Assembly: GCF_002775205.1 (NCBI RefSeq)
Contig: NC_036446.1
Location: 15,190,565-15,254,564 of the forward strand
Direction: 5' to 3'
Origin: Xiphophorus maculatus
Taxonomy: Eukaryota > Chordata > Actinopteri > Cyprinodontiformes > Poeciliidae
Length of the DNA: 64,000 nucleotides
Shown here one piece after another: positions 11,524 to 50,539 of the stretch (positions are counted from its first letter, which is position 1; each line of letters opens with the position of its first letter). The translations under genes were made by a program, and so were the position numbers. Below the pieces are notes generated by a model. That model did no database searches. It was not told the DNA's origin and saw only the letters and a program-made list of their open reading frames with translations.

Positions 11524-14169
<2,646 letters not shown>

Positions 14170-16156: not shown

Positions 16157-19100
16157 ATGGGGAATGGAATGAATAAGGTCAGTTGTGCTTTTGCTTCCCT
16201 ACTCAGGAGTTATGCTGTTTGTGGTCCCTCTAATGTAGCTGTGAAAAGCCTTCCTGATAGTCTGACAAGTCACTGTCAGTCAGACTGAGCTGATTGTCTA
16301 TCGAGTTAGACCTCCAAGGAAATGCAAGTTAGATATGGAGTAGACTTGTCTGGTATTTTGGAGATTCTTTAATGATTTCTAATGTCAATGCTTATTACCT
16401 CTTTACATAAACCATTACTGAAACTCATTTGTGATCAAAATGCATTTGGTAAATGCTAACTAACAGATAATAGCAAGGCTCAGATTGTTAGGCAGGGGGC
16501 GCTGTTGCAGAATACTCAAAAGAATACTCTTATAAATTATTTAGATTTTTTTTTTAATGATAAATAAATAATATATCTGTCATAATGATGTGGAAAATAC
16601 TTCACTCTTGGAAAATACATTCACTTCTTGAAATCCTGTTATTAGGAAATTTAGGTACATTTGAGGAGATGATAATGCTTTATTTAATGACACACAGTGG
16701 GAAAATATATATATATCTTCACTGCTGAGAGGATATTTATGTTTATTAATGTTGGGATTCCCCTTTTTCTGACTCAGTGGTGACCGTTGTGGTCCAGAAG
16801 CAGCACCCTGGTGCCGCTCATCACTTTGTCCTGCATGGCCACTCCAAGCCTTGTATGGCTGTGAGGACATTGCTAAGTTCTTAAGCCTTAAATCCAGCCT
16901 TACCTGACCTGGAACGAGCAGAGTTCTGGTCTCTGAGTTGGAATGGATGAATGAGTGATTGTAATGCAAGATGTCTGTGTCTGTTGCTTCACAGGTTGTT
17001 GATGGACTGTACCTGGGCAACATAAGAGGTAAGACAAACATGTTTCAAAATATGTTAACGCGTTAAGTTTAAGCTTAAAGAACAGACAGACCATGTTAGA
17101 CTCTCAGTCAGCATATTTGCGTTGGGTAACTGTTAGCGTAGCCTATTTAGGATTGTTTCTTATTGATTGGTGCAACACAGAGAGTCTTCCATTGAATCCT
17201 TTTTTAAATATTTAGTTTTATGTCAGTGTCAGTGGGTAATTTGGAGTGTACCTCCACATTTAAAAGCACTAGTAAATCGTATGCTCTTTGTGGTTAGTAG
17301 CACAGAACAAACCAACAGTTAAGCTGCATCAAACTGGCATCTTTTTTGGCCGCTTTTACAAACTGATTTCTGTTTGTGTTTCATCGAAAGGATAAATATC
17401 ATGTAGAAAGAGTGACTGATGAGACTGCAATAAGAATCAGTAATCATGTGAGTGTTCTGATAACTGGTTTGGCTAGGTGCACACCCTCAGCCCAGCTAAG
17501 CTGGCATTTGCATTTCCACTAATTTTAGCTCCTCCACCCGATTGCAGTGGCACCACATCTAAAATTAGTCCAGCTGACAGGATCAAGTGATCATAGGACT
17601 AACTATTGCAAAGAACCTGTTCTCAGCTCTGTCTCAATTTGAACCTTTAGCACCGCTGGTCAAAGTTATGTTTGTTTCCTGTAAAATATTAACCCAGAAG
17701 TATGCATCTTCATTTTTACAACCTGTCCTTTACAGTTGTGTCTAGCTGTGGAGCTCACAGTAGTTCTGTTCATTTCAATGAAAAAGCAAAAAATAAACAG
17801 CAGTTGTGGATGAAGCTGAGTATTGTGAGAAAGTGAAGAATGTTTGAGATGCAGAACTTTGGTATCAAGGCAGAAGACAGTGCCTATTCAAATGGAAAGC
17901 ACAGATAGCAAAGTCTACAGTTTGAGTGCAAACTGAGGAACTAAAATTATTTATGGGCATTTATCAAGTAAGAAGGTGATTGTCTGATTTGGATAAAAAT
18001 AAAAACACTACAATTCTGGCCGCAATCTGATAGACACTGACAATAACAGCTTGAGTTCTCAGTATTACAAAAGTGACTATTTTAATCTGGCTGTATTATG
18101 ACAGCAACATTACAGTATCAGCCATCAATGTGTATGCTGACCTAATCTAATCCAGTTCTGGAGCAGTTTGTGTACCGAACTTCAGGTGCATTTATTTCTA
18201 AAAAAAAGAGCCACCATACACTGATTTTCTTTTGTCTTTACTCTTTAATGATATTTATTCTAGAGGCTCATAGAAGAATCATAACCACTATCTGAGTATC
18301 TTATTGCCTGTGAATGGAGTTCTGGGTTTTGATCCAGGCATCACAAAGGAAGGGAAGCTGTGTTGAACCAGCCTCTTTGCACAGCAGACATGTCTATACA
18401 GGATTTTTTTTTTTGTTGCTGCAAGATTACCCTGAAGAAATACTTTTTTTTAGACTCTGAGTTAGCTGAGATTATTGTTAGATGATAGCCAGTCACAGAT
18501 GAATTCATACTGACCTGTTTTTCCAACATTCTGTGTTGTAAAGCCTGTTACAAAAATATAAAACATTCAAAAATGTCTGTGAGGGGTAATTCAATCCATT
18601 TAATGCTGTGATTCCTTGTGAATATTCTCAGCCTGTTTCTGAAATTAGAACTTACTGTTGAGCTCACAACATGTAAACACAAGTTGAGCAACTGTTTGAC
18701 TGATGTGTTTCTTGTTTTTCTTTTCGCAGATTCGGAAAACAGAGAAGGTCTCTCCAAAAACGGAATCACCCACATCCTTTCAGTATACAACAACGCTAAA
18801 CCAGTGCATGAGGTTAGTGAAGAAACCAGCCTGGGCGGTATTTTTGGCTGCTGCGTGGTGTGTTTTTAATGCATCAAACCAGTGCTTCCTGTGGAAAATT
18901 TTATCTGGTGATTTTTCTAAAGGCTTCTGTCTCTTTAGTAAGTGTAGTTCAGCCTTTCAGCCAGCAGGGGGAGCTAGTGACCTTTGATTGATGTAAAAGA
19001 GTTTGTGGCATCAACTGAAGTGTAAATTCAGTGCGTTAAAAGAGGTTTAGTTTAACTAAAAATGCAAAGCTCGTGATAAATAAGGTACACCACATTAAAC

Positions 19101-22100
19101 AAAGATTTAAAACCAGCTTTAATCACAATCTGAATTCTTCAGTTGACTGCTTTTAATCCTTGTTTTTCAGGACATGACATACCTTTGTATTCATGCGGCT
19201 GATGCTTCCAGTCAGAACCTGTGAGTAAACAAGTGGGGTTATTAGTGCTTGTTTTGTTTTTGTTTTGTATGTATCATTAAGACTGTCTCGGTTAATAATG
19301 CTAGTGTAAGAATTAAAGAAAAGTTTATCCACCTCATTGCTAATTTCATTACTATTAATCTTTATATATTTAGTGGAAGGTTTTTTCTGTACTATTAAAT
19401 TTAGCTCAAATCAGCTTTATTTATAGTAACTTCTCAGGTTTAGCGTATTATGAAATTTTGGAGGAAAAAACATCTTTATCCAAATGGGGAACTTGAGGTG
19501 AAGATAACATTACTGTGCCTCATGTTTTTATTTAACATAAACAAGGAATAAAAGGTGACTTAATAACTTAGAATAACTTATTAGTCTCTCATATTCTACA
19601 CTACTGTTTATGTTGACCCAATTTGAGCTAACCATCACCTTTTGAATGGATGTTTTCACATTTCATTGCAGTAAATGGTCACTTCCTTACTATGAGCTCT
19701 CCAGTACCTTACAGTTAGACTGGGATGTTTTTGTTTAGAGTAGCAAGGTTGGTTTTCACCTGGTTTTCACCAGCCTTGTTACTCTGGGTTATTATCAGAC
19801 ATCTGAAATTTGTGGTTGTTTATCTAAAGAAAATGCTATTTTTCCCAAAAGGTTTGTGGTTTATTTAGATTTTACAAATCTAATTTGTATTAAAATGTTT
19901 AACTTTAAAGAGACCAGGCTTCCTCTCAGAAGCCTTTTTAAAGTAACCACACTCGGTCAGCTTCCTGCTCTCTCTAACTTCAACATGCTGATGGAGGCCT
20001 GTGTTGTCGCAGGTGGAAGCCTTTAGTTTGCAACTTCCCTGAACATCGCATGGTCTGACCTCAGTGTGAACTTTACACTTCTGATAAAGAACAGCTGCTG
20101 TCTTGAATATTTTCAGCCATTTTATTTACGTTCATATTCATGTCGCTTAGCGGACACTTTTACCCTGTCATATTGCTGTGATGGAGACCCATCATCTCGA
20201 TCCGGGGCACGACAACATGCGGCAAGTTCGAGGATCAAATTCCTAACCTTATCAAAGATAGATAATCCTTCTGTTTCTGACAAACGGTGCTAAATATTTG
20301 TGACTGAAATTGTAACAGTCAGTAAATTGGTTCGGAAGCACTTACTCGTTCTTTTAATTTCTATTTGAGCTGCAAGGGGGGATTTTATTTTGCATATGCT
20401 TCTTCTGCAGCTTGTAATGACACAAGATATTATGTCATATGAGTTTGTTCATCTTTGTCATGTGATTTAAAGAGATATGAAAGATGAGGTGTAATTATCT
20501 GACGGTTCTTTCATACCATTGCTATGGATTAAAGTCCATTGAATCAGAGTGTTGCCTGTTGCTGCACACTGCTGGTTAGCTAACTGAAATGAAAGCTTCT
20601 ACATGTTTTCTGTACAAGAAAGACAGATTGAGCTATTCCCTATTTAAGGTGTAAAAAAACTATAGGTTTTAAAGTTATTAGGCAGTTTTATTTACTTTGA
20701 ATTAAATGCTTTCAGTATTTACTAAACAGGTAGATAAAGTCCTTATGTGGTTCATTTAAAATGTTCTGCTAAACCGAACAAAAAACAATTGGTAAGTGCT
20801 TTGCGTGGTTGCTTTCTTTTTTTCCTCTATTACACATATTAAACCATCTTCTTTTGATAGTTTTTCAAGCTTGAATTCTTAATATTCCAAACAGGTATTA
20901 CAGTTTTTGTGTTACTCCTGAAATGCCTATATTTTTGCCAGACTCACTTGTATCAAGATGATTGATCAAGTGAGCTAAAAAAAAAGGCCTACATTGAATT
21001 TTCCAGCCAAATGTTCGGGCAGAACATAAATCCTCCATTGAAAATTTCAGTATTATATACGTCATTTTTGATATGGGTGATCCAGATCCCTTTTATTATT
21101 AATGCAGGCCCTGCATTTATAGGAGGTAGAATTATAAGTTATAAGCTACACATAAGACAGAAAGGGATTGAATGTGAGGCATCTTTGACCCAAACTATGA
21201 TCCTGTTCCAGAGAAGTAGAGCCTGAGAGGAAAACGCTGCTTCTCTACTAACAGTTAAACGAACCACAGCAGGTTATGTCTTCTATGTGTTTTGGAGGGA
21301 ACTTCTGTTTTCAAGTCATCGGCAGCCAGGCTGAGTGTTTGCAGAGACATGAGCTGCACCTCCACTCTCAGCAGTGGCTGCTATCACAACACATTAGTCA
21401 TAGCAGTAACATGTCTTTTGATTAGCTCTGTGACTTCATACGACACTGTTTGTTTTAACTCATAATTAAACACCGTGCTCAAAGAGAGGATACAAAAAAA
21501 CATTGGTCTTGGTCAGTAGTTGGAGCATTAATGAGCCGTCTGCGTTGTTACAGTGCAAACTGATGACCGATTTTGAGATCAGGCTGAGAACTGCTCGACT
21601 TAGTGCTCTCTGTTTAGAGCTCTGGGCTGTGTAATTTATAGGGTGTTGGTGATGTTTCTGCCAGCAGAGTCGAAGTGTCAAGAGTAACTAAATACATTCC
21701 CGAAGAAGCCCTGACAGTAGAAAAGCATTGATTCTGCTAGGTAATAAAAGAATCTCAAAGCAACAGAGTTTCTCCGTTTTAACCTCAGTTTCAGCGTTGG
21801 TAGGTTCAGTTATCTGGGCTCTGAGGAGGAACTCGCTTGAAGTAAAACTCTTAATGAGAATTTAACTGTTGTGGCTGTTTGGCTGTTCTTGATTGGGCCA
21901 GGTTGGGGTGTGGTGGAGTGGGGTGTGGATGTCTGACCTCCACTGTCGCAATCAGGCGTCCTTCCCTCCGGCAGCAGAGGAAGGAAACCTCCCAGTGACA
22001 TCTGGCTGTTTGCTTCGACCACCCAGGGCTTTATAATAAACCCCCTCTGTCACAATCACTGGTCTGACTGAGGAGAGGAGAGGGTGAGGCCAACCGCCGT

Positions 22101-25100
22101 CTTGCCTTGCTTGCCATCACACAGGGGCCCCTACGGTCAGACCTGATGGCCCTTCTTATGTGTTCAGTGCATGACAGTAAACAGCATTAATGGTGTCTTG
22201 GGCTGCTGATTTGATCTGGTTTAAGAGTGACAGCTACACCGCATTAACTGCTCTTTATAAATTTTCTTCTTTGGCTTCTTCTAATGCAGCCTGTATCGGA
22301 AGTTCATCTTGTTTTTTATGAGCATTGGTTCTAATGCATAGAAATCACAGACCATGAAGGCATCAACTGATTTGCATCAGCATTTGCATTTGTGCAAGTC
22401 GTCCCCTAGTCCAAACTGGTTCCAAAACTAAGCAGATCATTGTAATTTAAGAAAAAAAAAGGAAAAATCAGCATAACATATACCAAATATACCACAGATT
22501 TGCAGAAGCTCGTTATGCATTTCAAACATACAGCAACTTCTATCTGCTAAAGCTCAGTTTTTGCCCTTTTTCTGTCTTCTTAAAACCTCAAACTTCTCTG
22601 TCACAAGTTAGTTTTCTGCACATTGAACAAGTACCGCCGGAAACCTCTGTGCTAGACGAACAAAGCAAAGTGCTGAGGGAGACGTTTTAAAGAAGGCTTT
22701 GGATCTCAAGGAGGAGGGAAAAAAACCCGAAAAGCAACAGTCTATTTTAGCTCCAGTCTGTTAGTGAGTCTGCTGTTGAGTAACCAGCATCTGCTCCTCC
22801 AGAGGCGCCGTTATCAGCCACGCACTTCTTGATTATGCAAAAGCTAAAGGAAATCATCGTTTTCAGACTGAATACACAAGAGGCCAGAGGGCCATTTGTC
22901 ACACAGCTACACCAGCTCTGTCCTGGTGCTGTATTTTGGGGCTGTTTTTTGTTGTATTCATTTCAAAGTGATGTAACTTTGCACATAAAGAAAAGGTAGA
23001 CGGTTACTTCCCTTCTCTATCCTCGCTGTCTGTGCCCTGGTCTACCACAAACTCTCTGTTTGAGCCAGCCTAATACTTTTCTCACATGACATGAGTGGAA
23101 AAGTAGAAAGAGAAAAAAAAACCCTCCTGATAAGCAGTTTCTTAGAAAAGACTGAAATCTATTAAAGCAGACTCATGCTATGTTGTAAACCTTTCGGAGT
23201 GCATTTGTAGTTTCAAGTGTCACAGTCAGGACATCATCATAATTTCTGAAACAAATTGGAACCGCATCGCTCTGGCCTTTACAGAGGGTTTCAGTTCAAG
23301 GTGTCTTTTCTCAGATCCCATTTAACGTAACCCATTTTTAGCTCCACTACCTGCATCGCTGACAAACAAGATGCTTCTTTCCCTTAATTTATGAGTGACT
23401 ATATTTGGCTTTTTACTTTAGACATTATTGCATGTTGCACAATTCCTATTTTTCTTCTTGTCAACATTTCTCTTGTGTTGCTTTTCCAGACTGCAGCATT
23501 TCAAAGAGTGCATCGGCTTCATCCACCAGTGTCGCCTCAACGGTGGAGCCTGTTTGGTTCACTGGTAGGTTTTTAAGATTTGAGCAGCTTCCTCATGGTA
23601 GCTGAGCGTGTCAAGTCTGCTCTCTAAATAAGGGTTATGAGAAAATCTCTTTCCAGATTAAAGCATTGTCAATGAGTGACTTGCTCTTCGGGTCTGAAGT
23701 TTACATGCTGTCAAAATAGGCATGTTGGTCTTTTTAATGGTGCATATAAATTTTGCCATGGTGTTTTTGCTACACAAGCATCTGGCAGAAATCCTGCTGC
23801 ATTTGGAAAGTTCATTTGAATATTCCTGGTTCAGACCGCTGCTGCTAAGAAGAGCCCACAACATCTCAATGAGAGTGTTGTTAGGGCCATTTCTGAAGCT
23901 TTATGGAAACCCACTTTATCCCAACATCAGGTTAGAACACCCCATTGGGTCCCAGGTTCCTCCATCTCTCACCCCAAACACTGAGTTTGACTTTAATATT
24001 GAAACTAAAACTGAAATGGAACTGAGGTTATTTCAATCTGGAGAGACTCAGACGGAAAAAACAGCGATTAAAAAGATTTATTGACATGCATGAATTTAAA
24101 GTTCTTTGGCGCTCGGGCCCCGGCTGAGGACATTGAGCTGTGAATTGCGATCAGCTCGGATGAGCATTCCCGATGTAGGTTAGGAATGTCATCCCCCGGG
24201 ACCCGACACTGGTGGTGGGGGTCGGTGAAGGACGGGAGCCTGAAGAGTGGAGGTGGAGAAGGGGTGGAGGAGGGTTGAGCGCAGCTGGAAAGCGGAAGAT
24301 GCCATGGATGGAGGTCCTTATCAACTGGGCCTTGGTCGGTGATTGGACGTGACGTGGCTTCGTCCAGCGTTGATAGGTCAGCGGTGATGAGCGGGACACG
24401 CCGACTGGATGATGCAGGTGGGGCTAAAGAGTCTTCCAGTTTGAATTTGCGCCTAGGCTTCATTTCTCTCAGTTGATCTGATTTTATTAAATATTTCTAT
24501 AAATAAATGAAATCTGTATGTGGTGTTAAGAAGCTTGAGAGGGGACTTTTTGTGAGCTGTTGCTATGAAAGTTGTTTAATATAATTGTAGCAACAGCTTC
24601 GTCTACAATCTGGTAGGTTTCCATTAAAATATTCAATAATATGCAATGCCTTGATAAATAAATAAACTAAATGAAAATGCTTTAAATGGAGAGAGAAAGA
24701 TTTAGCTCTTAGTCCACAAAATAATATGTTTCAAGTTGTCAAAAGTGTGGACACAGTTCCAACTCCTAAGCATGGTGGTGGTAACATCATGCTGAGGGTC
24801 TGTTTCACCAGCAGGGGTGCTGCTGCAATGCTCAAACTGGAAAACAAGTTTGGGTCCAAAGCAAGAAACCAGTCCATTTAAATGAACTCAATGAATGCTG
24901 CCATACAGAGTGATGAAATCCAGGATTATGGCAGAAACTTGTTGTTGTGTGTTGGAGAGCCGCAACTTGCTGAGGGATTTTTAACCAGGTACTAATGGTT
25001 ATGTGAATAGTCTGTATGTATAACTTTGTGCCAGTCTGAATGCGATAAAGAATGCAGACATATGCACCACGCTTTTTTTTTTTTTTTTAGTAATGAAAGT

Positions 25101-28100
25101 AGTTTGTTGTATCATCATTCCAGTGCAAATGCATCACTGTGACATAATGCTGGTTGCTGAGTTACACAGTTCCTTTTTTGCTGTAGTCTTGCAGGTGTGT
25201 CGCGCAGCACCACCATAGTGGTGGCCTACCTGATGACCGTCACCCACTACAGCTGGGAGGAATGTCTGACTGCAGTGAAGGCTGTTCGCTCGTTTGTCGG
25301 CCCAAACTACGGCTTCCAGGAGCAGCTGCAGGAGTACCAGAACACACGCGTCTCAGAGGTAAACCTGACAAACCCAAAAGCAGAGAGAAGCGAACGCTTT
25401 GGTGGTTTGAATGTTGAAACTAAACGCAATGCGGGTCTTTAGTTAAGATGTTTTCACCGTCTTAAGAACTGCAGGAATTTAGCGCTCTGTAAATAGTTTC
25501 AGGTGTTAATTGTGATTCAGTACTGAGGTCGGGACAGGATGTGACAAATGCAGCCATCACATGCAGACTGTGGTTAACCTGTCAACTGTTAATCGCAACC
25601 ATCTCAGACACACTTTGAGCTGTCTTCCAAAGTGGGTTAATTTCTGTCTCCTGCAGAGGACAACGAGCAACTATGATTTGTTACTCTGTAAAGACTAGAG
25701 GTTATAAATACAAACCAGTTCAATAAATCCACATATAACTTAACTCTGCTTCTCAGCTTTACTTTATATGTATGACACTCTTTTTAGATTTTTCTTGGTA
25801 AAAAAAAAAACAAACAAAAAAAATAAAAATGAAAACCCGACTGTTGCAATTCATAACAGTCGGGGGGCTATGCTGGCCCAAAAATATGAGATTTTTGTTT
25901 GTAATGTGAAAACATGAAAATGTTTAAGGGATTTGAATACTTTTGGAAAGCATTAGAAATTCCAAAGCATTCTTATCAAAAATTCTTTGTACCAAAAACA
26001 AAGTAAAACTAAAATTTGAAGAAATCGGAGATATTTATAGATTGCATTTCTGTTTCACTACATTTTTAAGACAAAACGACAGTATACACCTCAGGGTCTG
26101 AATTAAGTCATTTTACAGTCATATTCAATAAATTACAATATGCAAGTATCAAGCAGAGGTTCTATTAATCTCACCTTTCTGTGTAATTCTTTTTAATTGG
26201 TAATATTCTAATCTTAATAGTCTTGTTTTCTTTAGCTGCATCCAGAAAAATCCTCATAAAGTCTTGAAATCGTCAGTCTGTACAAATTTAATCTAATGTG
26301 CTTCACTTAGTGAAATGATTTAAGGAAACAAATGAACTTTTTGGTAACAAAACAATATATTATGCCGTGAACAACTTACAAAACTCTGTTCACTCCATCA
26401 TCTGAAAATGGAAACGGACACAACTGTCCACCTAACATGACAGGAGGCGACCAAGGAGGGTTTTATTCAGAGGATCATCCAGGAAGGCCACGGTGACTCT
26501 GGAGGAGCTGCAGATGACAGTCTAGATTTTACTTTAAACTAAGTAGCAGTTCTTTTTGTAGTTTGCTGCCAGCCGAGCAGGGATCATACCAACCGTGTGA
26601 AAGAAGGTGCTCTGGTCAGATGAGACCAAAATTATTGACTTGCTGGAAAATCACTTTGTGTGGTGGAAAACTGACACAGCACATCAAACTGAAACCAGCA
26701 TCGCCACCGTGGAACATGGCGGTAGCAACGTCGTGCTGTGGGAAAGCCTTTCTCCTGAAAGGATAGGGAAGCTTGTCAGAGTAAAAACACCGTTGTACAT
26801 AAACGCCAGAACTACAGTGGAATGGTTTAGATAAAGTGCAAACCTAAATCCAAGTGAATATCTGTGTAAAGACTGTGTAAAATTTATTAGTTAATTTAAA
26901 ACAGTCAATTTGCAAAATGACTCTAAAAGATCTTTTACCAGACTTAGCTTAAGCTAGTTTCCATCTGTTGTCCCTGAGCAGATAAGTTAATAAAACAGTC
27001 TAATATCCTAAAGCATACATCTACTCTAATAAGAATCACTGTAGAAAGTCATAAAATGACAAGAATATAAATAATACTAAATGCTAAATGTCTGCTCTGA
27101 AAATTGATGTCTACTGATGCTCTTCATTCAGTTTAAGCTATTTTGCTGAGTAGAAAAATGAAAATAGTGGAGACCAGGTAGTTAATGGTGGTTCTACTAA
27201 TTACTGACTCAAGCAGCTCAATGCCATCCTTTTCAGGTTTTTATTTGTAGAAAATGTTGAAAACCAACATCTGATTTTCATTTCACTTCACAATTCTACA
27301 GTGCTTTATGTTGCTCTGTCTCCTAATTACCAGTAGAATTAAGAGATTAGGGGTGTGAATACTTATGTAGGGCACCTGCACATCTGATCTGGCTTTGGCA
27401 TTTTTCAAGGCAGAAAAGTCCAAGTCAAAGTCCAGGAAAATCTAAAGTAAATTTAAGTGCCGGATTCAAATATTACTGGTGCACAGTTTGGTCCTTTCAA
27501 CAAATTGTCTTTGATTCATCTGAAGAATGTGATCCGTACCGAATTGAACGCGTCCAACGTGAGCTTGCAGCGGCTGGCTGTTCTCAGCCTGTATCTTTTG
27601 CAGAAGACACGCAGAGTGTGTGATTCCATGACCAGCCCGTGTGAGAAGGGGAACTGCAGGGGGTTTGCTTGGATTGCATTAGCCTGGGTCTGCTCATCAC
27701 GTGTTAAGCATTACTGTCAGCATCTTGCAACATAGCATGACTTCAAAAAAAAAAAAAAAAAGAAACCTGCTCATTGTTTGAAAACGTTGCACTGATTTCT
27801 AGGATTAAAGAGGAAATGTGTTTTCTGCATCTGTGATTTTCCCACATGTGTAAGAGAGAAAGTAAAGCCTCCACAGATGATTTTTGTATTTGAGATTATC
27901 TGATTAACAAGAACTTTCAATTATTTATCTAAACACGCATTTGTTTGAAAGTGTTAAAGATCCTGCGGACCTGAGCAACCTTGAACGTTGATAACGTTAT
28001 CAGATCATTACAGTTTAACCAATCCCTGCCTTTGAACTGGATCATTGTGTTATGATTAAAACATTTTGAAGGGTGAACAGACATTTTAAAAAGTTTATTA

Positions 28101-29966
28101 AATATCAAACACTTTTATTAACTATTGTATTTGAAATTAATGGTTAGCGCCTAACAGTGGAGTTTTGAAATGTCTGGAAAAGTATTTAATTTACTTTTAT
28201 ATGGTAATTTTCCAGGTCTGTATGGTTGAGGAAAAAGGAAAATAGATAGACTTTTCTCCACACAAGAAAAAGGTCATTAGTCAAAATCAACAAACATGTT
28301 TTACAGAATCAGCATTTCGCCTGGGAGACTTTCTTCCTTATTTGACATGTGTAACAGTTGTAGATTTTGAAAAAGGGCTGCTAAGCCAGACGCCACAAAA
28401 GCAGCGGTCCATTAGCACACTCTGAAAACCAGCCCATCAATTTAAGCATTATTATTTTATTATCTGTGAAATATTCTGATCGTAAGGCTTGACTACAATT
28501 TAAACAGATTCAGAGTTGAATGCCCAGACTCTTTTTTTTTTTTTAATCATTCTAAATAAATATTGTGTACATTTAAATCTGGAGAACTATAAAATAATAT
28601 GTAGGAATCTTGTCAATATGATCCTGTTTTTGTTCAGAAGCTGCTGGGCTTGAGTTGTATCAACTCAGATGAACCAGATGTGACTTATCCTGCTTGTACT
28701 TTGTGGCTTTTGTGGAGTTATAAAATATTTCAAGATGACACATTAAAATTTTTGCTAGTTTCTTTTGATGTTATCTTTACTCTGGTTTCATCTTCTTTAA
28801 ATTCATCTCTTTTACAGCTGGGTTAGTGTAATGAGTCAGTGCTGTGGTGTTTGGCTCTTTGGATGAATGTGACAATACTAATTTAAGGAAGATGAATGTA
28901 TTACTTTCACAATGACTTTCACTTCAAATAATGTTATGGCACAAGTTAGTGGATAAATCCTGAATATCATTTTAACTTTTCTTGATGTTAAAGAAAGTTT
29001 TTAAAGAAAGGCTCATATATGTAATTAAATCCAAAGTCATGTAAGCTGGACAGTAACATTAAGAATATATATTTTTTAAAAGATTTACAATCCTTTCATT
29101 CTTTATTTTAACTCTTCTAACAGAATTCACGTTCTACTACAATTTCACTAAGAAGTTTCATTCTTAGGTTATTATCTGTTATATCAGGTATCTATTCAGC
29201 TCAGATGTTTGAAACATGGAAACAACTGTTCCAACAGAACAATGATCAAAAAGACACATCCAAACCGATTTTTGGAATGCATAAAACAGGGTGGCAACAA
29301 TGGCATTTCTCAACCATGGGGATTTTTCTGCTTTCTTTAATATTTTAATATTACAGCCGATCGATTAAAAAACTATTTTTAAAAGCAGAAACGTGAGCTT
29401 AATGAAAAGTGTGTTTAATACCTGCTTACAGGTTATTTTCAAAAGGTGCTTTTGACAAACAAGACTAAGTAAATTTGGTCTAAGTAAATCTGGAGATATA
29501 TTTATTAAATATGATTGTACAACCAACCGTTTGTGGCCAGTTGGATGTTAAGGGAGGGTTGTATGTATTGTATGTAGCCTTGGTGTTTAATTTGGATGCT
29601 CAGTGGATTTGTGAAAAATCCATTATAAATACATATATATTTTTAAAAATCATGACATTTTTATGTTGTGATGTATTTCACCTTTGAGAAATACAATAAA
29701 AATGTTTTATTCATTATTATTATTCCTGAGCATGGCTCACCACATTATTCAGGGTAATGAAGGTCTTCATTGCTTGCTTCTTTTTATGTCTCCAGTACCG
29801 AGCTTGGCTTCAGTCCAGTTTTCGTCCCAGTCCGTTCAATGACCAGCAGGAGGTGGAGGCTCTGTTAAACCAGTATGCTGAGCAGCAGGAGAGCCAGGGC
29901 AGAGCGGTGGACCACAGCTGGATGAACCGGGGTGTAGACGCTGCTGATGCTGAAGGCGACAGCTAA
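16157..29966 (+). CDS. dusp22a: dual-specificity protein phosphatase 22 (fish dusp22a-like)
   Basis: Seven coding exons: 16157-16177, 16995-17028, 18730-18812, 19171-19220, 23490-23564, 25187-25358 and 29796-29966. All introns are GT-AG, and the product is 201 residues. It is a small cytosolic or membrane-linked phosphatase of the JSP-1/VHX type, whose relatives act on MAPK-JNK and T-cell receptor kinase signalling. MGNGMNK is an N-myristoylation signal. The catalytic loop is HCLAGVSRS (87-95), with nucleophile Cys88 and Arg94. Asp57 in HAAD is the likely general acid. The core follows human DUSP22 and DUSP15 closely: KVVDGLYLGNIRD, ITHILSV and VHCLAGVSRS. The C-terminal 60 residues (YRAWLQSSFRPSPFNDQQEV onward) diverge and end in an acidic tail. 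Teleosts keep two dusp22 copies; the irf8 neighbour suggests this is the 'a' copy, an inference. A polyadenylation signal lies at 30138-30143 and a second at 30367-30372. The large introns hold transposon relics. Very sure of the family, less of the a/b label. Confidence 0.93.
16490..16506 (+). promoter_or_regulatory. CTCF-like motif in dusp22 intron 1
   Basis: GGCAGGGGGCGCTG at about 16492-16505 contains the AGGGGGCGC core of a CTCF site. Motif only. Confidence 0.4.
18961..18973 (+). promoter_or_regulatory. CTCF-like motif in dusp22 intron 3
   Basis: CCAGCAGGGGGAG matches the CTCF core CCASYAGRKGGMR well. The surrounding bases are not obviously part of a repeat. Motif only; occupancy is inferred. 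Confidence 0.45.
19221..23489 (+). other. dusp22 intron 4, with a non-repetitive GC-richer block
   Basis: This 4.3-kb intron has no recognised transposon. The stretch at about 21780-22160 is GC-richer and non-repetitive, with runs such as CAGGGGCCCCTACGGTCAGA and a purine-rich GAGGAGAGGAGAGGG. Another block at 22630-22880 is also of higher complexity. They could be intronic enhancers, but I see no diagnostic motif set. Confidence 0.35.
24070..24470 (-). mobile_element. GC-rich block, possible 3' end of a retroelement
   Basis: Inside dusp22 intron 5 is an island of clearly higher GC with sharp edges. On the minus strand it carries an open frame of 131 codons (24068-24463) beginning MKPRRKFKLEDSLAPPASSS, rich in Pro, Ser and Arg. 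It runs straight into AATAAA (minus strand, 24077-24082) followed by ATCTTTTT. A compositionally distinct block ending in a polyadenylation signal is what the 3' end of a retroelement or a processed insertion looks like. I do not recognise the protein and assign no function. Confidence 0.4.
24710..25080 (+). mobile_element. Tc1-like transposon relic in dusp22 intron 5
   Basis: The phrase AGCATGGTGGTGGTAACATC near 24770, followed by CATGCTGAGGGTCTGTTTCA, is the hallmark 'hGGGSVMLWG' region of Tc1 transposases, here on the plus strand. The rest is decayed beyond reading. A T-run ends the relic near 25075. Confidence 0.65.
26090..26370. mobile_element. MITE-like Tc1 derivative, decayed
   Basis: ATTCAATAAATTACAATATG near 26124 resembles the inverted-repeat end CTCAATAAATTAGAATAT of a common teleost Tc1 group. 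The inner sequence is short and non-coding. It lies directly before another Tc1 relic. Recognition is tentative. Confidence 0.4.
26380..27375 (+). mobile_element. Tc1-like transposon, inactive, in dusp22 intron 6
   Basis: Plus-strand traces of the transposase: an early segment near 26400-26500, GTGCTCTGGTCAGATGAGAC (26606-26625; the conserved 'WSDETK' block), ACATGGCGGTAGCAACGTCG (the 'GGGS' block) and CTACAGTGGAATGGTTTAGA near 26813. Many stops break it. The right end near 27340-27375 (GGGTGTGAATACTTATGTAG) fits a Tc1 terminus. About 1 kb, close to the size of a full element. Confidence 0.7.
27440..27735 (+). other. non-repetitive block in dusp22 intron 6
   Basis: A higher-complexity stretch with a 92-codon open frame (27457-27735) that has no matching splice sites or recognised domain. 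It ends at a long A-run (about 27747-27762). It could be a regulatory element or the body of a processed insertion with a poly-A tail; I cannot decide. Confidence 0.3.
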
Positions 29967-31152
29967 AGCTCCAGCTCCGTACCCAAGTCAGCCCCCATAC
30001 CGAATTCAACTTTAGAGTTTGGATTAAAGAAATCGTTTTTTTTTTAAGCTCTGGATATTTATTTAGAAATTTGCTACAAACTTTGATTTCTTATATCACT
30101 GAGCACTGCCATTGCTATGGTTTTGGTGACGCCTTACAATAAACACCCCAGCACTTTAGCCATAATGAGTAACTTCCATGTATCTTTTTTTGTTTTGTTT
30201 GTTTTTGTTTTGTTTATTTATTTATTTTTTTACCATTGACTCAGCAGCCTTACATCTGACTGATTAATGCTGTTTTGATTAAAAACTGTTTGCCTTTTTG
30301 AAAAATGAAATGCTCCAGTTCAGCCATAATGTCTTATTTTTACGTACATCCCTCCAGTTTCTCCAAAATAAACTATTTAACACCGCAGCTTGTGAAATCA
30401 TCATGTGCATTGGACTGATGCATTTTTTAAGTGCATCTGATTAACAGATAATGAGAAAGATTTTTTATTATTATTATTTGATCACATTACACAGACCAAA
30501 ATGCATTACCTGGACCCCACAGTGAAACTTCCTGATTTGGTGGAAATAATGATGATGTGTAGTAGGTCACAGAGTGTTGCACAAACTTCTACTTTCCCTG
30601 CTCAGGAGGGAACTTAATGCTCCTTGTCAGGCTGTAAGTAGAAAAAAGAGAACAGTTAAACAATAAAAGCAGGAGGTAACATTTGGTGACAGATTGCTTT
30701 AATTGTCCACAATAATTTATGGCACTATAAACACATTGAAAATGTTTTAACATTTAGAAAATGTTACTTGAGATAAAATAAACTCAATGAACTTTGAAGA
30801 GTAATCACCCTTTGATTTCCAAACACCTGTCTTCCTTTTAATGCCTCTTTGTAATGCAATTGTGGATTTAAAAAAAAATATATATTGTTAAATTTCTGTT
30901 CTGTTTTAATTATGTATATATGATTTATTTTGTTGTTATGTTTTATAAAGAAATGCAAAATTGCTAATAAATCTGAAGCTCTTGCAATGAGTGTATAAGC
31001 CAAGTTGAATCATGTATTACAAAAAGAACTGATAAGGCCAATGAATCACGTTAAACATTTACTTCCTTTTTTTTAAAAAAAAAAACGTAATTATACTATC
31101 ATTATTCATGAAATTCTGAAGAAATTGCAGACATTCAGAGATGGCATGCTAG

Positions 31153-31361
31153 GGCGTGCCGTGGTGGCGTAGCGGTTAGCGCGACCCGTATTTGGAGGCC
31201 TTGAGTCCTCGACGCAGCCGTCGCGGGTTCGACTCCCGGACCCGATGACATTTGCCACATGTCTTCCCCCCCTCTCCTTCCCTGTTTCCTGTCAGCCTAC
31301 TATCATATAAGGGACACTAGAGCCCACAAAAGACCCCCTGGAGGGGTAAAAAAAAAAAAAA
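31153..31361 (+). mobile_element. tRNA-derived SINE with perfect target-site duplication
   Basis: A tRNA-like head has an A box (GTGGCGTAGCGGTTAGCGC, about 31164) and a B box (GGGTTCGACTCCC, about 31226). A unique body with CCTGTTTCCTGTCAGCCTAC follows, and the element ends in GGAGGGGT plus 14 A. It is flanked by an identical 16-bp duplication, AGAGATGGCATGCTAG, at 31137-31152 and 31362-31377. This is target-primed insertion by a LINE machinery in trans. The perfect duplication suggests a fairly recent event. It lies between dusp22 and irf8. Confidence 0.92.
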
Positions 31362-31437
31362 AGAGATGGCATGCTAGTCTTTGATATATTTTCAAATATA
31401 CCAGAAGGGATTCGAGAGAAGTTTGGAGTGAACAGCA

Positions 31438-31535
31438 TTTACTCTCATGCACCAATATGGAGTTTGCATGTTCTCCCTATGCATGCATGGGTTCTTTCCG
31501 AGTACTCCGGCTTCCTCCCACAGTAAAAAAGTTGA
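31438..31535 (+). repeat. fragment of a common teleost interspersed repeat
   Basis: GGAGTTTGCATGTTCTCCCT followed by GTACTCCGGCTTCCTCCCAC is a phrase shared by very many fish genomes, usually next to a tRNA-like head. Here only this body segment remains. Recognised from memory. Confidence 0.65.
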
Positions 31536-31599
31536 ACCCGAATTTCAGTTTTCTCAGAAAATTAAAGACATGATGAGACCAATAAACAATCATCTATGA

Positions 31600-32705
31600 T
31601 CCAGTAATATTAATATGTCAATATTAATATTAATATGGCCAGTAGAACCTTGAAGAACTGCTGGTGACCTTTCAGTAATTAAGCAGACAACTCCAGAATT
31701 AGAGGAATTTCATGAAAGGTTGTTGTTAAAGATCTACCTGTTTACAGAGATCTTGATGGGAAATTGAGTGGTAGAAAATTTTAGTCAAATAGGAAAATCA
31801 CAGCTTTTTAGAGGATTGTGAAGCAAAGCCCATGTAAGACTTTAGTAGAGATTACAAGGCGTGGGAGAACAAGCTTCAAGAGCCACCATATATTTGGGCA
31901 TTAGCTGTTCCATTCCGTGTGTCGAGCAAATCCTAAACTAGAGGCAGCACCAATAGAGTCTTACTTGTAATAAAACGGAAAATATCAAAGATCAGAATTT
32001 CTATTTTCAAAGAAAAACAAAAGAAGACAAGAAATGTTGCATTTCAGTTGGGAATTAATGTTCTTGAGTCTGGGGGAAGACTGGAGACATTCAGAATCCA
32101 AACGGTGACCATTTACGGAGCCATGTCACTTTTGTTCCACTGATGAATCAAGTCCAGTCAGTGCCTCCATCTGCCAGCACCTTTTAGAGTACATCATTTT
32201 TCCTTCTGCTGATAAGCTTTATGAAAATATTGATTTCATTTTCCAGGAGGACTCTGCAGCTGCTCACACTGCTGAATGTACAAACACTTGATTTCATAGC
32301 CATGATTTAACTGAGTTTGATTGGTCAGTCTGTGGAGTATTGTCCAGAGAAAGATAAGACATCAGATTGAACAATGCAGACAAAGTGGAGGACAATATTA
32401 AAGCAACCTGATCTTCCTGAACAGCAGAGTTGATCTCCTCCATACTACTCAGCACTGATCCTAAATTAATTCAAATATTTAGAGCAAATAATGTTTCTTT
32501 TTGTTTATCTTGTGTTTTGTTCACATTAGCTGAACAGTTAGCTATAAACCCTAGTGGTAAAATTGAATAGAAACACCCTGGCTTGAGTTGCTAATGTGAG
32601 ATCAGGCTACATAACACACAAATTTCACTTTTTTATTTCATTCACTGAAATAAACCAACGTATTGGTTATGTTTCAATTTATTGAGATGCTCAAAAAGTG
32701 GTTGT
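31600..32705 (+). mobile_element. Tc1/mariner transposon, nearly full length but inactive
   Basis: Plus-strand relic of the same family as the one at 438-1165. Recognisable are CTTCAAGAGCCACCATATAT (31876), CGTGTGTCGAGCAAATCCTA, CATTTCAGTTGGGAATTAAT, the 'AEKLY' region near 32205-32230 and TTTCATTTTCCAGGAGGACT (32235; the conserved 'DFIFQQD' with catalytic Asp). The right end near 32675-32695 reads TCAATTTATTGAGATGC, the inverse of the family terminus. Stops and frameshifts leave no intact transposase. Confidence 0.78.
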
Positions 32706-32949
32706 GTCTTTAGCCTTTAAACTGTCAACATTTGTATGGAGACAGTTGGACAGGTTTAGGCATGCAGCTTCCTGGCAGGAAAAACAAACAAACATACTTA
32801 CAGTAAGTTTAGCAAGCTGTTGAAAATTCCCATTTCGCTCAGTCCATCCGGTTATTTCCAGATTTTAAACTATCAATAATAATTGTTCTCCGTTTACTGG
32901 AACATAACATTGTCAAATAAGTTCAATATCATAGGGAAATTGCACATTT

Positions 32950-33560
32950 TGAAACCTGGTGTGGAGATAAACGTCTTATGTTGAACTCCAGTAAAACTAA
33001 AGGAACCTTGGGATTGGGATTGGGATTGGGAGCACTCGGTCATGTGATGTTCGGTGGAAATATTATTGAAAAAGTGCTCATCTTTAAATTTCTTGGCATC
33101 ATTACATCCAATAGTTTGGGCTGGAGGGATCATGTTGATTATCGCTGCTCTAAATTAGCCCAAAGACTTCATTTCCTGCAGAGACTTGGGTTGTTTGGAG
33201 TCCAAGCTAAGATCATGCTGACTTTCTATGACGCAGTTTTCGGGAGTTTAATCAAATACGCCATGGGCTTGGTTTGGCTCGCTTACCTTGAAGTCCAAAT
33301 CTAGACTTGCTAGCGTAGTGAAAACCTGGATGAAAATAAGCAGGACAAATTCTCAACCTCTTCCACTGCAGTCTGTCGATGACGCTGCAGTAATTAGACA
33401 GGCAATAAAGATCTTGACGGATCCATTTCATGCTCTGCTTGGTGACTAATAATGCCAGGAAAACGTTACAGAGTCATTTGTTGCCAAACCAACTCTTTTA
33501 AGCAATCCTTTTCCAACCTCCATCTCTCTTCTTAATAAATTGTGATTACTATTTGGAGGA
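32950..33560 (+). mobile_element. non-LTR retrotransposon (LINE) 3' fragment
   Basis: An open frame at 32978-33304 encodes the end of a reverse-transcriptase domain. LNSSKTK, then FKFLGIITSNSLGWRDHVDY and KLAQRLHFLQRLGLFGVQ match the 'LN..KTKE ... KFLG..I...L.W..H' thumb region of fish LINEs of the L2/CR1/Rex1 type. After a break the frame resumes near 33400-33530 with 'ILTDPFHAL ... PSGKRYR ... KNSFVPTSINLLN'-like remains, the usual C-terminus. 5'-truncated and dead. Confidence 0.8.
33008..33031 (+). repeat. G-rich hexamer array, G-quadruplex-capable
   Basis: Four GGG runs at 33010-33012, 33016-33018, 33022-33024 and 33028-33030 are separated by ATT loops, so (GGGATT)3GGG. This is a perfect intramolecular quadruplex pattern on the plus strand, inside the LINE fragment. 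Confidence 0.75.
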
Positions 33561-34053
33561 TGACAGGGAAGGCCTTTGTTGCATTTCAAGTTGTTATGTA
33601 TCTTGTACATTCATTTAATTATTTATCTTTTATTTCTTTTTCTTGTTGTTGTTTTATATAGCACTAATCACAAAAGGTCAAATTCAAATTGAAGTACTCA
33701 TGATTCAGAAGAGGTACCAAAGCCCCACTGTTGTGATCCTTCAAGGATAATGAGGTAAAGACAATGAATGGATAAGTCAGAAGTTGAACCTTGGAAATGT
33801 TTGACCTTTTTCTTTGGATATGAGAAAGCCTGTTTATTCAGACAGAAAGATTACCATTGCTGAGGGTGTGTGTGTGTGTCATTACTTTGACACACAGTTG
33901 CATTAAAAATAAAATCAGCCCAGCCTCACCAACCAAATCAATCACTGTATTATGTTTCTACTTGGTTTAGTAGGAGCAGCAGAGTGAGGGAAATCCAACA
34001 GATTAAACAATCATGACATGCATGTTTTTGATTTTAATATAAGGTGGCCCTCA

Positions 34054-34088
34054 CCCATTTTATGATTATCTTAAAATCATAAAATGGG
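34054..34088. repeat. perfect 14-bp inverted repeat
   Basis: CCCATTTTATGATT (34054-34067) and AATCATAAAATGGG (34075-34088) are exact reverse complements around a 7-base loop. The DNA could form a cruciform. It may be a remnant of a MITE; no wider terminal repeats seen. Confidence 0.8.
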
Positions 34089-34288
34089 GATTCCAGAATT
34101 TTTTCCAGAAGATCATGCTTTGATTAAAACATTGATTAGACAGAAGAAAAGAAAATAATGTAGAAAATAAAAGACTGCTGAGCTAAAATGATCTCAAATT
34201 ATAAAACAATGACAAGGACTGAAGATGTCAGACCTCTCACACACCTGGGATCATGGGTCAGTTTGAACACATTAAAATAGTAAAAGTG

Positions 34289-34331
34289 TTTCCCTCTTTG
34301 GGAATAGTGTTACCTCATCCCAAAGAGGAAA
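34289..34331. promoter_or_regulatory. imperfect inverted repeat with a PU.1-type site, upstream of irf8
   Basis: TTTCCCTCTTTGGGA (34289-34303) and TCCCAAAGAGGAAA (34318-34331) pair with one bulged base. The right arm contains AAAGAGGAAATG, a good PU.1 (ETS) site; the left arm, inverted, has an extra G that spoils its ETS core. It lies about 1.1 kb upstream of the irf8 first exon. PU.1 is the main activator of mammalian IRF8, so the link is plausible but inferred. Confidence 0.45.
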
Positions 34332-35149
34332 TGCTCCCGAATGACGTGTTTCAACAAGATGTCAGACCTTTCTCCAAGCACACCTTCAACTGAGCAGACC
34401 AACAAAATGAGGTGTGGAGAGGTCAGTTCACATCTTGGACCTTAGCTTAATAGAAAAAAAAATGTTGTGTGACATCAAGTGTGTCTCAGACAAATCTAAG
34501 AAATTACAGAAAAACTGTGGAATGTAATTCAGTCATTCTTTTTGCAGTTTATACTGTTTTTAAACAAAAATAGACTGCTTAAAAAAAAAATGGCTAATTG
34601 TTCTTTTTTTCCTTAAGAAAGATGATCAACTGACCAGTTTTTTTCTTTCTTAGAGTTTAATTTTGTGTGGCCTTTTCAATGTTTTAATGCAATTTTTGTA
34701 TATAAATAAATGATGTTAAACTGCTGGTTTTTACTCAATTTGCTATGATTGAACAAAACTTTATAAATGACAAATAATTGAGTTATTTACCTCTGTGTTG
34801 ACCTTAAAATTATTTCAGACATGTAGCCTATTTTGGAACTAAGATGACATAATGAACATAGGTGATTTATTGCGTTTTTTAACACAAATAATAATTCTGA
34901 AGTCTATTTCTGATGCGCCCCTTGTGTGTTCTCTGGTTCTCTATTTCCATGGTTAATATCATGCAGGTGCATTTCTGAAGAAATCTGGAACATGGCTTTG
35001 GTCCACTCTGTACAAAGCGCCACTGTGGCAGCACAGCCGCTTTTTCTTTTGCGGTTTCACATTAGATTTGCGTGGGCGCGGATAGGAACGCACAACCTCC
35101 TCGTTCTGTCGCACAGAAATCCCCCTCTTCACACAGTAACTTGTGACTT

Positions 35150-35380
35150 TACGGCTTTTAATCAGTGCTCCCCGTCCTCGGAGCTTTCGGCGTGGGCAGA
35201 AGCTTTACAACCATCCCCTGTGTCAGGCCATTTCTTGTAAATACCAGCAGTTCAGAGAAAGAACCCTTCCTGAATGGGTCGTCGAGGCGCAGCCATTGGC
35301 TGGAGCGAGGCAGCGCTGGTAAGCCCCTCCCTCCTGTTTCATTCATGCAGCACAACAAACTTTATAGGCAGCTTGTTCAG
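35150..35380 (+). promoter_or_regulatory. irf8 core promoter with GAS and TATA-like elements
   Basis: A CpG-richer interval follows an AT-rich spacer. TTCAGAGAA at 35251-35259 fits the interferon-gamma activated site TTCN3GAA, the STAT1 target that drives mammalian IRF8. TTTATA at 35361-35366, about 100 bases on, is a TATA-like box, which puts the start near 35390. The stretch 35190-35300 has further GC-rich motifs. Motifs are seen; function is inferred from the mammalian gene. Confidence 0.6.
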
Positions 35381-35389
35381 GGGAGCGCA

Positions 35390-35456
35390 CTTGATTTATC
35401 CTGAGGCATAAATCAGCAACTCACACAGAGCCAGGAGCTCACCAGCCTGACTTACT
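35390..35456 (+). other. irf8 non-coding first exon
   Basis: The exon ends at the strong donor ACT|GTAAGT (GT at 35457-35458). The next exon begins at 35633, giving a short 176-base intron 1. The start is set only by the TATA-like box. Mammalian IRF8 likewise has a non-coding exon 1. Confidence 0.55.
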
Positions 35457-35585
35457 GTAAGTGATTTTACTTTTGGTTTAGCAGAAAACGCTCACAGACT
35501 CGACTTACAATCACTCATTTAATAGTTAACTTGATGATTGCCAGAAAGAGTGATGGGAATAATTTAGATGTTTTTGTTCTTATTC

Positions 35586-35632
35586 TTATAATAATAATAA
35601 TAATTATTATTATTGTTATTATTATTATTTAG
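35586..35632 (+). repeat. (AAT)n/(ATT)n microsatellite forming the irf8 intron 1 acceptor
   Basis: A run of AAT units changes to ATT units, so the two halves can fold on each other, and the last unit ends ATTTAG at the splice acceptor (AG at 35631-35632). The usual pyrimidine tract is therefore replaced by a trinucleotide repeat. Confidence 0.75.
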
Positions 35633-35673
35633 GTAAAAGTGAACAATCTGAGGCAAAAAGACGCGCTGTCAAG

Positions 35674-38313
35674 ATGTCAAACTCGGGTGGTCGCAGACTG
35701 AAGCAGTGGCTGATAGAGCAGATCCAAAGTGCGCAGTACTCTGGGCTGCAGTGGGAGGATGAAAGCCGCACCATGTTCAGAATTCCGTGGAAACACGCAG
35801 GAAAGCAGGATTACAACCAAGAAGTTGACGCATCTATTTTCAAGGTTTGAGTTTCCTGGAATCTGGATTTTTTCTTTCTTTCTGTTTGCTTTTTCTTGAG
35901 GCGCTGCAGCTAAAACGTAATTGATATTGAAGAAACATTTTGTTTATATGATAAATAAAAAAATCTTTCTGTATTTCTTTTTCTCTTCTCTCTTGCTTTT
36001 TAGCTCTCCTTCTTTCTTTCCTTTTTTTTTGTTCTTTTGACACCTTGCTTGATATTTTTTGCTTCTTGCCCTCTCCACAGGCCTGGGCTGTCTTTAAAGG
36101 CAAGTTTAAGGAGGGGGATAAGGCTGAGCCTGCAACATGGAAGACCAGACTCCGCTGTGCCCTCAACAAAAGCCCTGACTTTGAGGAAGTAACAGAGAGG
36201 TCACAGCTGGACATTTCCGAGCCATACAAGGTGTACCGCATCGTACCCGAAGAGGAGCAGAAACGTGGGTTTTCCTTTAAACCTGCTCACTTGTCATGAT
36301 AATACATAATTAAGTTATTTCTGTAAAATCTCAACAGAATCGTAACACGTGTTTGTTTGTTTGTTTGTTTTTCACCCTCAGATGGTAAAATACCAGTGAT
36401 GACCATGACAGGTACCGCCAGCTCTGGTGACCACACAGACATGGCCTGCAGCCCTACAGAAATAGAGGAGCTCATTAAGGAGGTACAGAACTGCCTTTCA
36501 CTTGAAATAGTTCATCTTCACATTGCTTTAGCGTCTTGATGCTCTCAAGTTCATCACCTCTTTGTATTTTTCTCCTTTTGCGACACTTTTTGACCTTCAG
36601 TATCACACTGCTGTTCTCTCCTTCAACACTTGTTGCATTCAGCATGCATACCCTCCTCCCTTGTTGTACGCCACAAGCTAATGCAAACTGCTGTGTGTCT
36701 TTTTGCAGGAGGACAGCTGCAGCATCCAGGCCAGCCCAGAGTATTGGCCCCAGAACAGCATGAATGGTAAAAAAAAAAAAAATGCTCTCATGTTGATTAT
36801 TTGAACTGTTAGGATTTCTCTATGTGTTGGACATGCAAATATTTATCTGCATCTAAATTTCGTCTCAACTTTGTAAGACTAATTAGAATTTCTGAGACAT
36901 TGACTTTTTTTTTTTTTTTTCCATTAAAAATAACCCCAGTGGAAAGCTCTGCCGTTTGTCCCGGCTGCTGTGGGTGCTACATACAAGCTGTTTGCTTGTC
37001 TGTCTGTTGAATTCTGCAATGGAACAATTGACTAATATCCTGTTTAAGTCTGCTGACTAAAGTGATTATTTCTCTGTAAATCGTGCTAAGGGAATGCTAT
37101 TTCTGATGATGCAGCAAAGAACAGACATGACACTGAGGTTGAGTCCACTACAGTAAAACAGAGATGAATTACAAGAAAAGTCATGCCTTCTTTTTGTAAT
37201 TCACAGCTTTCTCTCTGCATCAGGACCCGATGCCATCAGGCAACGTCAATTCAGGTATGAAAACAGTTCCTTTTTCAGGGATTCTATAAAATCTATTAAT
37301 TAAAATAAGTGTTATCATATATTCTGTCATTTCTAAACTTTTTTTCTTCCATTTCTAGGTTTCTCCCAGTTGATGATCTCTTTCTACTATGGAGGGAAGC
37401 TGATGTACAACACACTGGTTACTCATCCAGAAGGCTGCCGGATTTCCCCCCAGCAGCACCTGGGTCGTGGCGCCCCCTACAGTTCAGACAGCATGCAGAA
37501 CGTTCACTTCCCCCCAGCAGAGCTTATAGAGTACGAGAGGCAGCGCTACTTCACCCGCAAGCTGCTGGGTCACCTGGAGAGAGGCGTGCTGGTGCGTGCA
37601 AACCAAGAGGGCATCTTCATTAAAAGACTGTGCCAGAGTCGAGTCTTCTGTAGCGGGCTGGGGGATGGCAGCTCCCAGTACGGCTCCATGCCCTGGAAAC
37701 TGGAGAGGGATTCTGTAGTCAAGATTTTTGACACAGGAAGGTTTTTTCAAGGTGAGTCTCAATGTTTGGAAAGCTAAGATCAATGATTAAGACTCGTTTT
37801 CCAAGCAAAGGATGTGACAGAGGAGCGATGATATAATATGGTGGCCTAAAGCTCTTTTTTCCTGTTGTCATAAATGTTGCAGCTCTACAGCTCTATCAGG
37901 AAGGTCAGATTGCTGCTCCGGATCCCTCGGTGACGCTGTGTTTTGGAGAAGAACTGAATGATGTTAGCAATGCCAAGAGCAAACTGATCGTTCTACAGGT
38001 AAGACCTGTCGACTCACAACAGAACAGCTGAGAAAATGTGAATCTGTTGAAGAGACACAAAAATCCAACAACAACAAAAAAAAACCTTCTCTCCTTTCTT
38101 CTCCTCCGACAACAGATCACCATGGTGAACTGCCAGCACATGCTGGAGTCCCTGAACCTGCGTCGCTCGCAGCCTTACACCAGCAGCCCAAATGTGGAGA
38201 TGAGCGATGATGTGGCCACCGAGCAGATGGCCAGAATCTACCAGGACTTGTGCAGCTACAGTGTTCCCCAGAGGCCGGCCTGCTACAGGGACAACATGCC
38301 CATCACTGCCTGA
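35674..38313 (+). CDS. irf8: interferon regulatory factor 8
   Basis: Eight coding exons: 35674-35844, 36081-36264, 36382-36482, 36709-36766, 37207-37254, 37359-37751, 37883-37998 and 38116-38313. Together they give 422 residues (human 426). IRF8 is a nuclear transcription factor that directs macrophage and dendritic-cell fate. It works with PU.1 on composite ETS-IRF sites and responds to interferon. The DNA-binding domain (about 7-114) has the five-tryptophan pattern at W12, W27, W39, W59 and W77, and ends EPYKVYRIVPEEEQK. A less conserved linker follows (EIEELIKE, near 145-152, is shared with mammals). The IRF-association domain (about 189-365) contains SQLMISFYYGGKL, ERQRYFTRKLLGHLERGVL, IKRLCQSRVFCSG and KLERDSVVKIFDTGRFF. 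I choose IRF8 over IRF4 from the linker, the C-terminus and the cox4i1-side synteny. The exon pattern matches the mammalian gene. Polyadenylation signal AATAAA at 38861-38866. The start has A at -3. Very sure. Confidence 0.97.
36345..36372 (+). repeat. (GTTT)n tract ahead of irf8 exon 4
   Basis: About six GTTT units run into TTTTCACCCTCAG, so a tetranucleotide repeat supplies part of the pyrimidine tract of this acceptor. Confidence 0.6.
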
Positions 38314-50393: not shown

Positions 50394-50492
<99 letters not shown>

Positions 50493-50496
50493 CAAA

Positions 50497-50539
<43 letters not shown>

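Follow-up and report, generated by a model that had tools for sequence, protein, structure and literature searches.

IRF4, IRF8, IRF9 and IRF10 belong to one paralogon that was split by two whole-genome duplications (PMC12220609). Wotton & Shimeld 2006 (PMC1634998) describe four human paralogons: DUSP22-IRF4 on chromosome 6, DUSP15-IRF10 on chromosome 20, IRF8 on chromosome 16 and IRF9 on chromosome 14, the last of which is called the weakest of the four. The paralogon duplications are dated there before the split between ray-finned and lobe-finned lineages, and block duplication is backed by the COX4, NOC, IRF, MLCK and Fox paralogues. Here we describe a phosphatase gene of the DUSP22/DUSP15 type, called dusp below, that lies beside irf8 in 64,000 nucleotides of Xiphophorus maculatus DNA (contig NC_036446.1, positions 15,190,565 to 15,254,564 of the forward strand). 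This whole stretch is referred to as the window, and coordinates are counted from its first letter.

A dusp gene on the irf8 side has been reported before. On zebrafish chromosome 18, as in Xenopus, it is found in the psf2-noc4-cox4i1 region, and chicken and mammals are described as being without it (Wotton & Shimeld 2006, PMC1634998). The Xenopus family member lies together with psf2-noc4-cox4i1 on scaffold 188; Tetraodon and Fugu resemble these, and their arrangement also takes in irf8. In 2006, zebrafish irf8 sat on an unassigned contig and Xenopus irf8 on a different scaffold that was truncated on that side (PMC1634998). Among the genes listed for a human 16q24.1 deletion are GSE1, GINS2, C16orf74, EMC8, COX4I1 and IRF8, and the list contains no DUSP (PMC12385333). 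The irf8-side dusp was already published in 2006, and the arrangement is known, not new here. PMC1634998 is the sole paper on it found in our literature search, and a later report may exist. Zebrafish dusp22b lies with irf4a on chromosome 2 (PMC9597995), so dusp22 persists on the irf4 side too; for the irf4b region of chromosome 20 that paper reports no dusp22.

The best explanation of the locus, and one that we consider highly probable, is that it is a block copy from the two early vertebrate genome duplications, in which teleosts and frogs retained the dusp next to irf8, whereas the amniote line lost it, either early on or before amniotes arose.

The dusp gene and its place beside irf8

The gene order in the window was observed directly, from gene models together with PDB and Pfam matches: gins2(-), emc8(-), cox4i1(+), dusp(+), irf8(+). 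The first-pass annotation had put a dusp gene between cox4i1 and irf8, and it is there. The limits that it gave were exact: the dusp ATG begins at 16157, and the irf8 TGA ends at 38313. From the cox4i1 stop to the dusp ATG there are 1,987 bases, and from the dusp stop to the irf8 ATG 5,707 bases.

The dusp gene (16157..29966, + strand) has seven coding exons, at 16157-16177, 16995-17028, 18730-18812, 19171-19220, 23490-23564, 25187-25358 and 29796-29966. All six introns are GT-AG, and the reading frame is open over 606 nt, giving 201 aa. In a PDB search, DUSP22 was the best match of this protein (E 2.9e-63, 216 bits) and DUSP15 the second (169 bits); other DUSP families reached at most 92.2 bits among the best 60 of 74 matches. 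Pfam recognized a DSPc domain (E 3.8e-32). The catalytic HCx5R motif is intact, reading HCLAGVSRS across the joint of exons 5 and 6, and the N-terminus MGNGMNK fits MGNGMxK, which is a myristoylation signal; both are the same as in DUSP22 in the PDB alignment. By sequence, the product is an atypical dual-specificity phosphatase of the DUSP22/DUSP15 subfamily. Since the PDB scores point to this subfamily and the N-terminus and the catalytic loop are kept, the gene looks intact and its phosphatase functional. By analogy with the family, the product is probably N-myristoylated and may be a small membrane-associated protein that damps kinase signalling like DUSP22.

The same data bear on the idea that dusp could be a decayed gene remnant or that its exons were joined wrongly in the model. 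Its branch in the tree described below is long (0.42, compared to 0.23 for human DUSP22), and the short exon 2 (VVDGLYLGNIR, 16995-17028), overlooked in the first pattern scan, needed a dedicated search. The splice-constrained scan that recovered this exon gave it a score of 42 versus 14 for the next candidate elsewhere. However, with six of six introns GT-AG, an open frame and an intact catalytic motif, a remnant or an artefact of joining is extremely unlikely. A broken dusp gene had been considered while exon 2 was absent from the pattern scan, and was set aside when the exon was found.

The irf8 gene (35674..38313, + strand) has eight coding exons with seven of seven introns GT-AG and encodes 422 aa. 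The domain, identity and primer comparisons were made with an earlier model of 416 aa, which is six residues shorter. In this model Pfam recognized the IRF and IRF-3 domains. Its full-length identity is 51% with human IRF8 (439 columns) and 38% with human IRF4 (410 columns), the two proteins compared at full length; both human sequences were entered by hand. No IRF8 chain was named among the PDB matches of the 416-aa protein. We also compared five trout primers (PMC7915476) with the spliced coding sequence of irf8. Of the two irf8-1 qPCR primers, one matched at 17 of 20 bases and the other, which spans the joint of exons 1 and 2, at 18 of 21. The irf8-2 forward primer matched at only 13 of 18 bases, a score that an unrelated site reached as well; the irf10-1 forward primer reached at best 12 of 19, and the irf9-1 forward primer at best 10 of 18. 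On these comparisons the gene is assigned to irf8: by full-length identity it is nearer IRF8 than IRF4, and by the primer matches it is nearer irf8 than irf9 or irf10.

Upstream of dusp, cox4i1 (11524..14169, + strand) and emc8, also called NOC4 or COX4NB (8687..10360, - strand), were modelled with checked start and stop codons and with exon joints set by eye. The cox4i1 protein matched cytochrome c oxidase subunit 4 isoform 1 in PDB (E 4.8e-74) and Pfam COX4 (E 1.4e-57); isoform 2 was not named among the 13 PDB matches. The emc8 protein scored 314 bits against EMC8 versus 166 bits against EMC9 in PDB and matched Pfam UPF0172 (E 2.5e-69), and by these scores it is clearly EMC8, not EMC9. Only partial exons of gins2 (PSF2) were placed (3635..6253, - strand), and their outer limits are limits of open reading frames (ORFs), not of the gene. 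Two of the three pieces have Pfam matches, 5792-6253(-) to PSF2_N (E 1.8e-13) and 4406-4585(-) to Sld5 (E 1.6e-5); the third, 3635-3796(-), is without a Pfam match and is putatively assigned to gins2 by its likeness to the GINS2 sequence.

Thus, dusp is flanked by psf2/gins2, noc4/emc8, cox4i1 and irf8, as in the IRF8-side member of the Fox-cluster paralogon (PMC1634998). Because the emc gene is EMC8 rather than EMC9, the COX4 match is to isoform 1, and the irf comparisons favour irf8, the block is assigned by its sequences to the IRF8 side, not to the IRF9 or IRF10 side. It is the same block as the psf2-noc4-cox4i1-irf8-foxf1 region that carries dusp on zebrafish chromosome 18 and in Fugu, Tetraodon and Xenopus, irf8 being included in Fugu and Tetraodon (PMC1634998). 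No difference from these genes is known at the level of the map description. What the window contributes beyond the published fish and frog genes is one more genome, with all coding exons modelled, rather than a new idea; its gene model supports what the draft-genome mapping of 2006 showed.

Relationship of dusp to DUSP22 and DUSP15

We compared dusp with the two human proteins over the same 157 gap-free residues. It is identical to DUSP22 at 92 of them (58.6%) and to DUSP15 at 81 (51.6%), and DUSP22 and DUSP15 are identical to each other at 88 (56.1%). The residue is the same in all three proteins at 68 positions and different in each at 32. At the remaining 57, dusp shares its residue with DUSP22 in 24 cases and with DUSP15 in 13; in the other 20 it is the odd one out. 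Since the identity of dusp to DUSP22 is near that between DUSP22 and DUSP15, we read dusp as an old paralogue, about as old as the DUSP22-DUSP15 split and with a slight lean to DUSP22, although these data do not prove it.

DUSP22 next to IRF4 (human 6p25; zebrafish dusp22b-irf4a, PMC9597995) is the closest relative compared, being of the same phosphatase family and having a neighbour of the IRF4 group. It belongs to another paralogon, and the tail of human DUSP22 is unlike the dusp tail beyond the compared residues. DUSP15 next to IRF10 on human chromosome 20 is of the same family with the same kind of neighbour. It is less similar to dusp than DUSP22 is, and its COX4 neighbour is COX4I2 (PMC1634998).

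Several results weigh against dusp being a third old paralogue of the block. A maximum-likelihood tree of seven sequences and 141 columns groups dusp with human DUSP22 (Shimodaira-Hasegawa-like approximate likelihood ratio test, SH-aLRT, 86.7; ultrafast bootstrap, UFBoot, 81). The dusp data alone do not establish a third old paralogue, and a fast-evolving DUSP22 copy that had moved here before the split of tetrapods and fish would look much alike. In the approximately unbiased (AU) test, two alternatives to the grouping with DUSP22 were retained. With dusp as sister to DUSP22 and DUSP15 together, p-AU was 0.243. With dusp as sister to DUSP15 alone, p-AU was 0.063, and the bootstrap proportion by resampled log-likelihoods (bp-RELL, 0.032) was the only one of five measures to exclude it. 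The gene need not be a strict orthologue of DUSP22, our own tree being too small to settle orthology. The first-pass annotation had called the gene a clear dusp22; its family holds, with 216 and 169 bits for the two relatives, and the UFBoot value of 81 and the two retained alternatives call for caution over the name dusp22.

The grouping with DUSP22 is also compatible with an early duplication of DUSP22 as a single gene, which would have landed by irf8 before the ray-finned and lobe-finned split, independently of the block duplications, with DUSP15 outside the pair in the tree. This would require a chance landing next to a gene of the IRF4 group that otherwise had no DUSP. A block duplication yields the same place for free and is backed by the COX4, NOC, IRF, MLCK and Fox paralogues (PMC1634998). 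We consider the single-gene origin quite unlikely.

A search of genome contigs for relatives with a 60-aa peptide from dusp exons 5-6 returned two bacterial loci only, both in metagenome-assembled genomes (MAGs). One, on a Candidatus Protochlamydia contig (L001:5001-5144), is a DUSP-like stretch 49% identical to peptide residues 1-49, and may be a eukaryote-like phosphatase of an amoeba symbiont or a contaminant. The other is a shorter match in a Caulobacterales MAG (L002). A plasmid search with dusp exon 6 found nothing.

Proposed origin and probable loss of the irf8-side copy

Under the block-copy explanation, a single pre-vertebrate block would have given rise to its copies through the two early vertebrate genome duplications. 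The gins2-emc8-cox4i1-dusp-irf8 block would be one of these copies, and its sisters would carry DUSP22-IRF4 (human chromosome 6), DUSP15-IRF10 (chromosome 20) and IRF9 (chromosome 14). The irf8-side dusp would then have been retained in teleosts and frogs and would have disappeared before or early in amniotes, and in this fish it would be an intact gene for a small phosphatase. The open frame, the catalytic motif and the family are observed in the window, like the gene order; the species distribution and the four-paralogon scheme come from the cited papers, and the timing of the loss is our inference. The idea of an ancestral DUSP and IRF block that was duplicated had been put forward in the first-pass annotation as well. 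Its core agrees with PMC1634998, with a fourfold set taking the place of the single pair that was proposed.

It is also conceivable that dusp arose within teleosts alone, copied from the dusp22 on the irf4 side in the teleost genome duplication and then moved beside irf8. The small tree, which puts dusp with DUSP22, favours this. Against it, a dusp is reported from this block in Xenopus as well (PMC1634998), and the identity of dusp to DUSP22 is almost as low as that between DUSP22 and DUSP15. We find a teleost-only origin very improbable; it had been named beforehand as an outcome that would refute the ancestral block, and the Xenopus gene argues against it, provided that the frog and fish copies are the same gene. 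It was set aside on account of the Xenopus gene.

The loss itself had been assigned to the mammalian lineage. That a loss occurred stands, and its restriction to mammals does not, since chicken is also described as being without the gene (PMC1634998). Because chicken lacks the irf8-side dusp like mammals, the loss probably took place in early amniotes. The locus gives a clean example of how fish and frogs reveal a neighbour that mammals are missing.

One may also ask why a dusp gene would stay next to an irf gene. The pairing could have been kept at three loci since the early genome duplications because control elements of the neighbouring irf are shared with dusp or lie inside it, which we regard as unlikely. 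If this is true, the loss of dusp at irf8 in amniotes would have needed a relocation of irf8 enhancers, which in fish and frogs would sit within dusp introns.

Other features of the window

No further gene was recognized in the last 25.7 kb past irf8, where short exons would escape the ORF and Pfam scan. This part holds 120 ORFs of at least 55 aa, of which 21 were scanned with Pfam (one at E 0.01 and 20 at E 0.1). None of the 21 had a match above the cut-off, and foxf1 was not found among them; the window ends 25.7 kb past irf8, and foxf1 may lie further on. Sub-threshold Pfam matches in this part were to Chs7 (E 0.023), DUF648 (E 0.075) and DUF1360 (E 0.083). An Rfam scan gave no match at gathering scores.

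Three ORFs presumably derive from mobile elements, judging by resemblance. Those at 53482-53859 and 57718-58041 resemble decayed pieces of a Tc1-type transposase, and the one at 32921-33304, between dusp and irf8, resembles a piece of a non-LTR (long terminal repeat) reverse transcriptase; the three are without a Pfam match. In Atlantic salmon macrophage-like cells, a gene named dusp22a is reported to be reduced by poly(I:C) at 24 h (PMC5591513). Past irf8, an AACT tetranucleotide microsatellite of 36.5 copies occupies 50394-50539.

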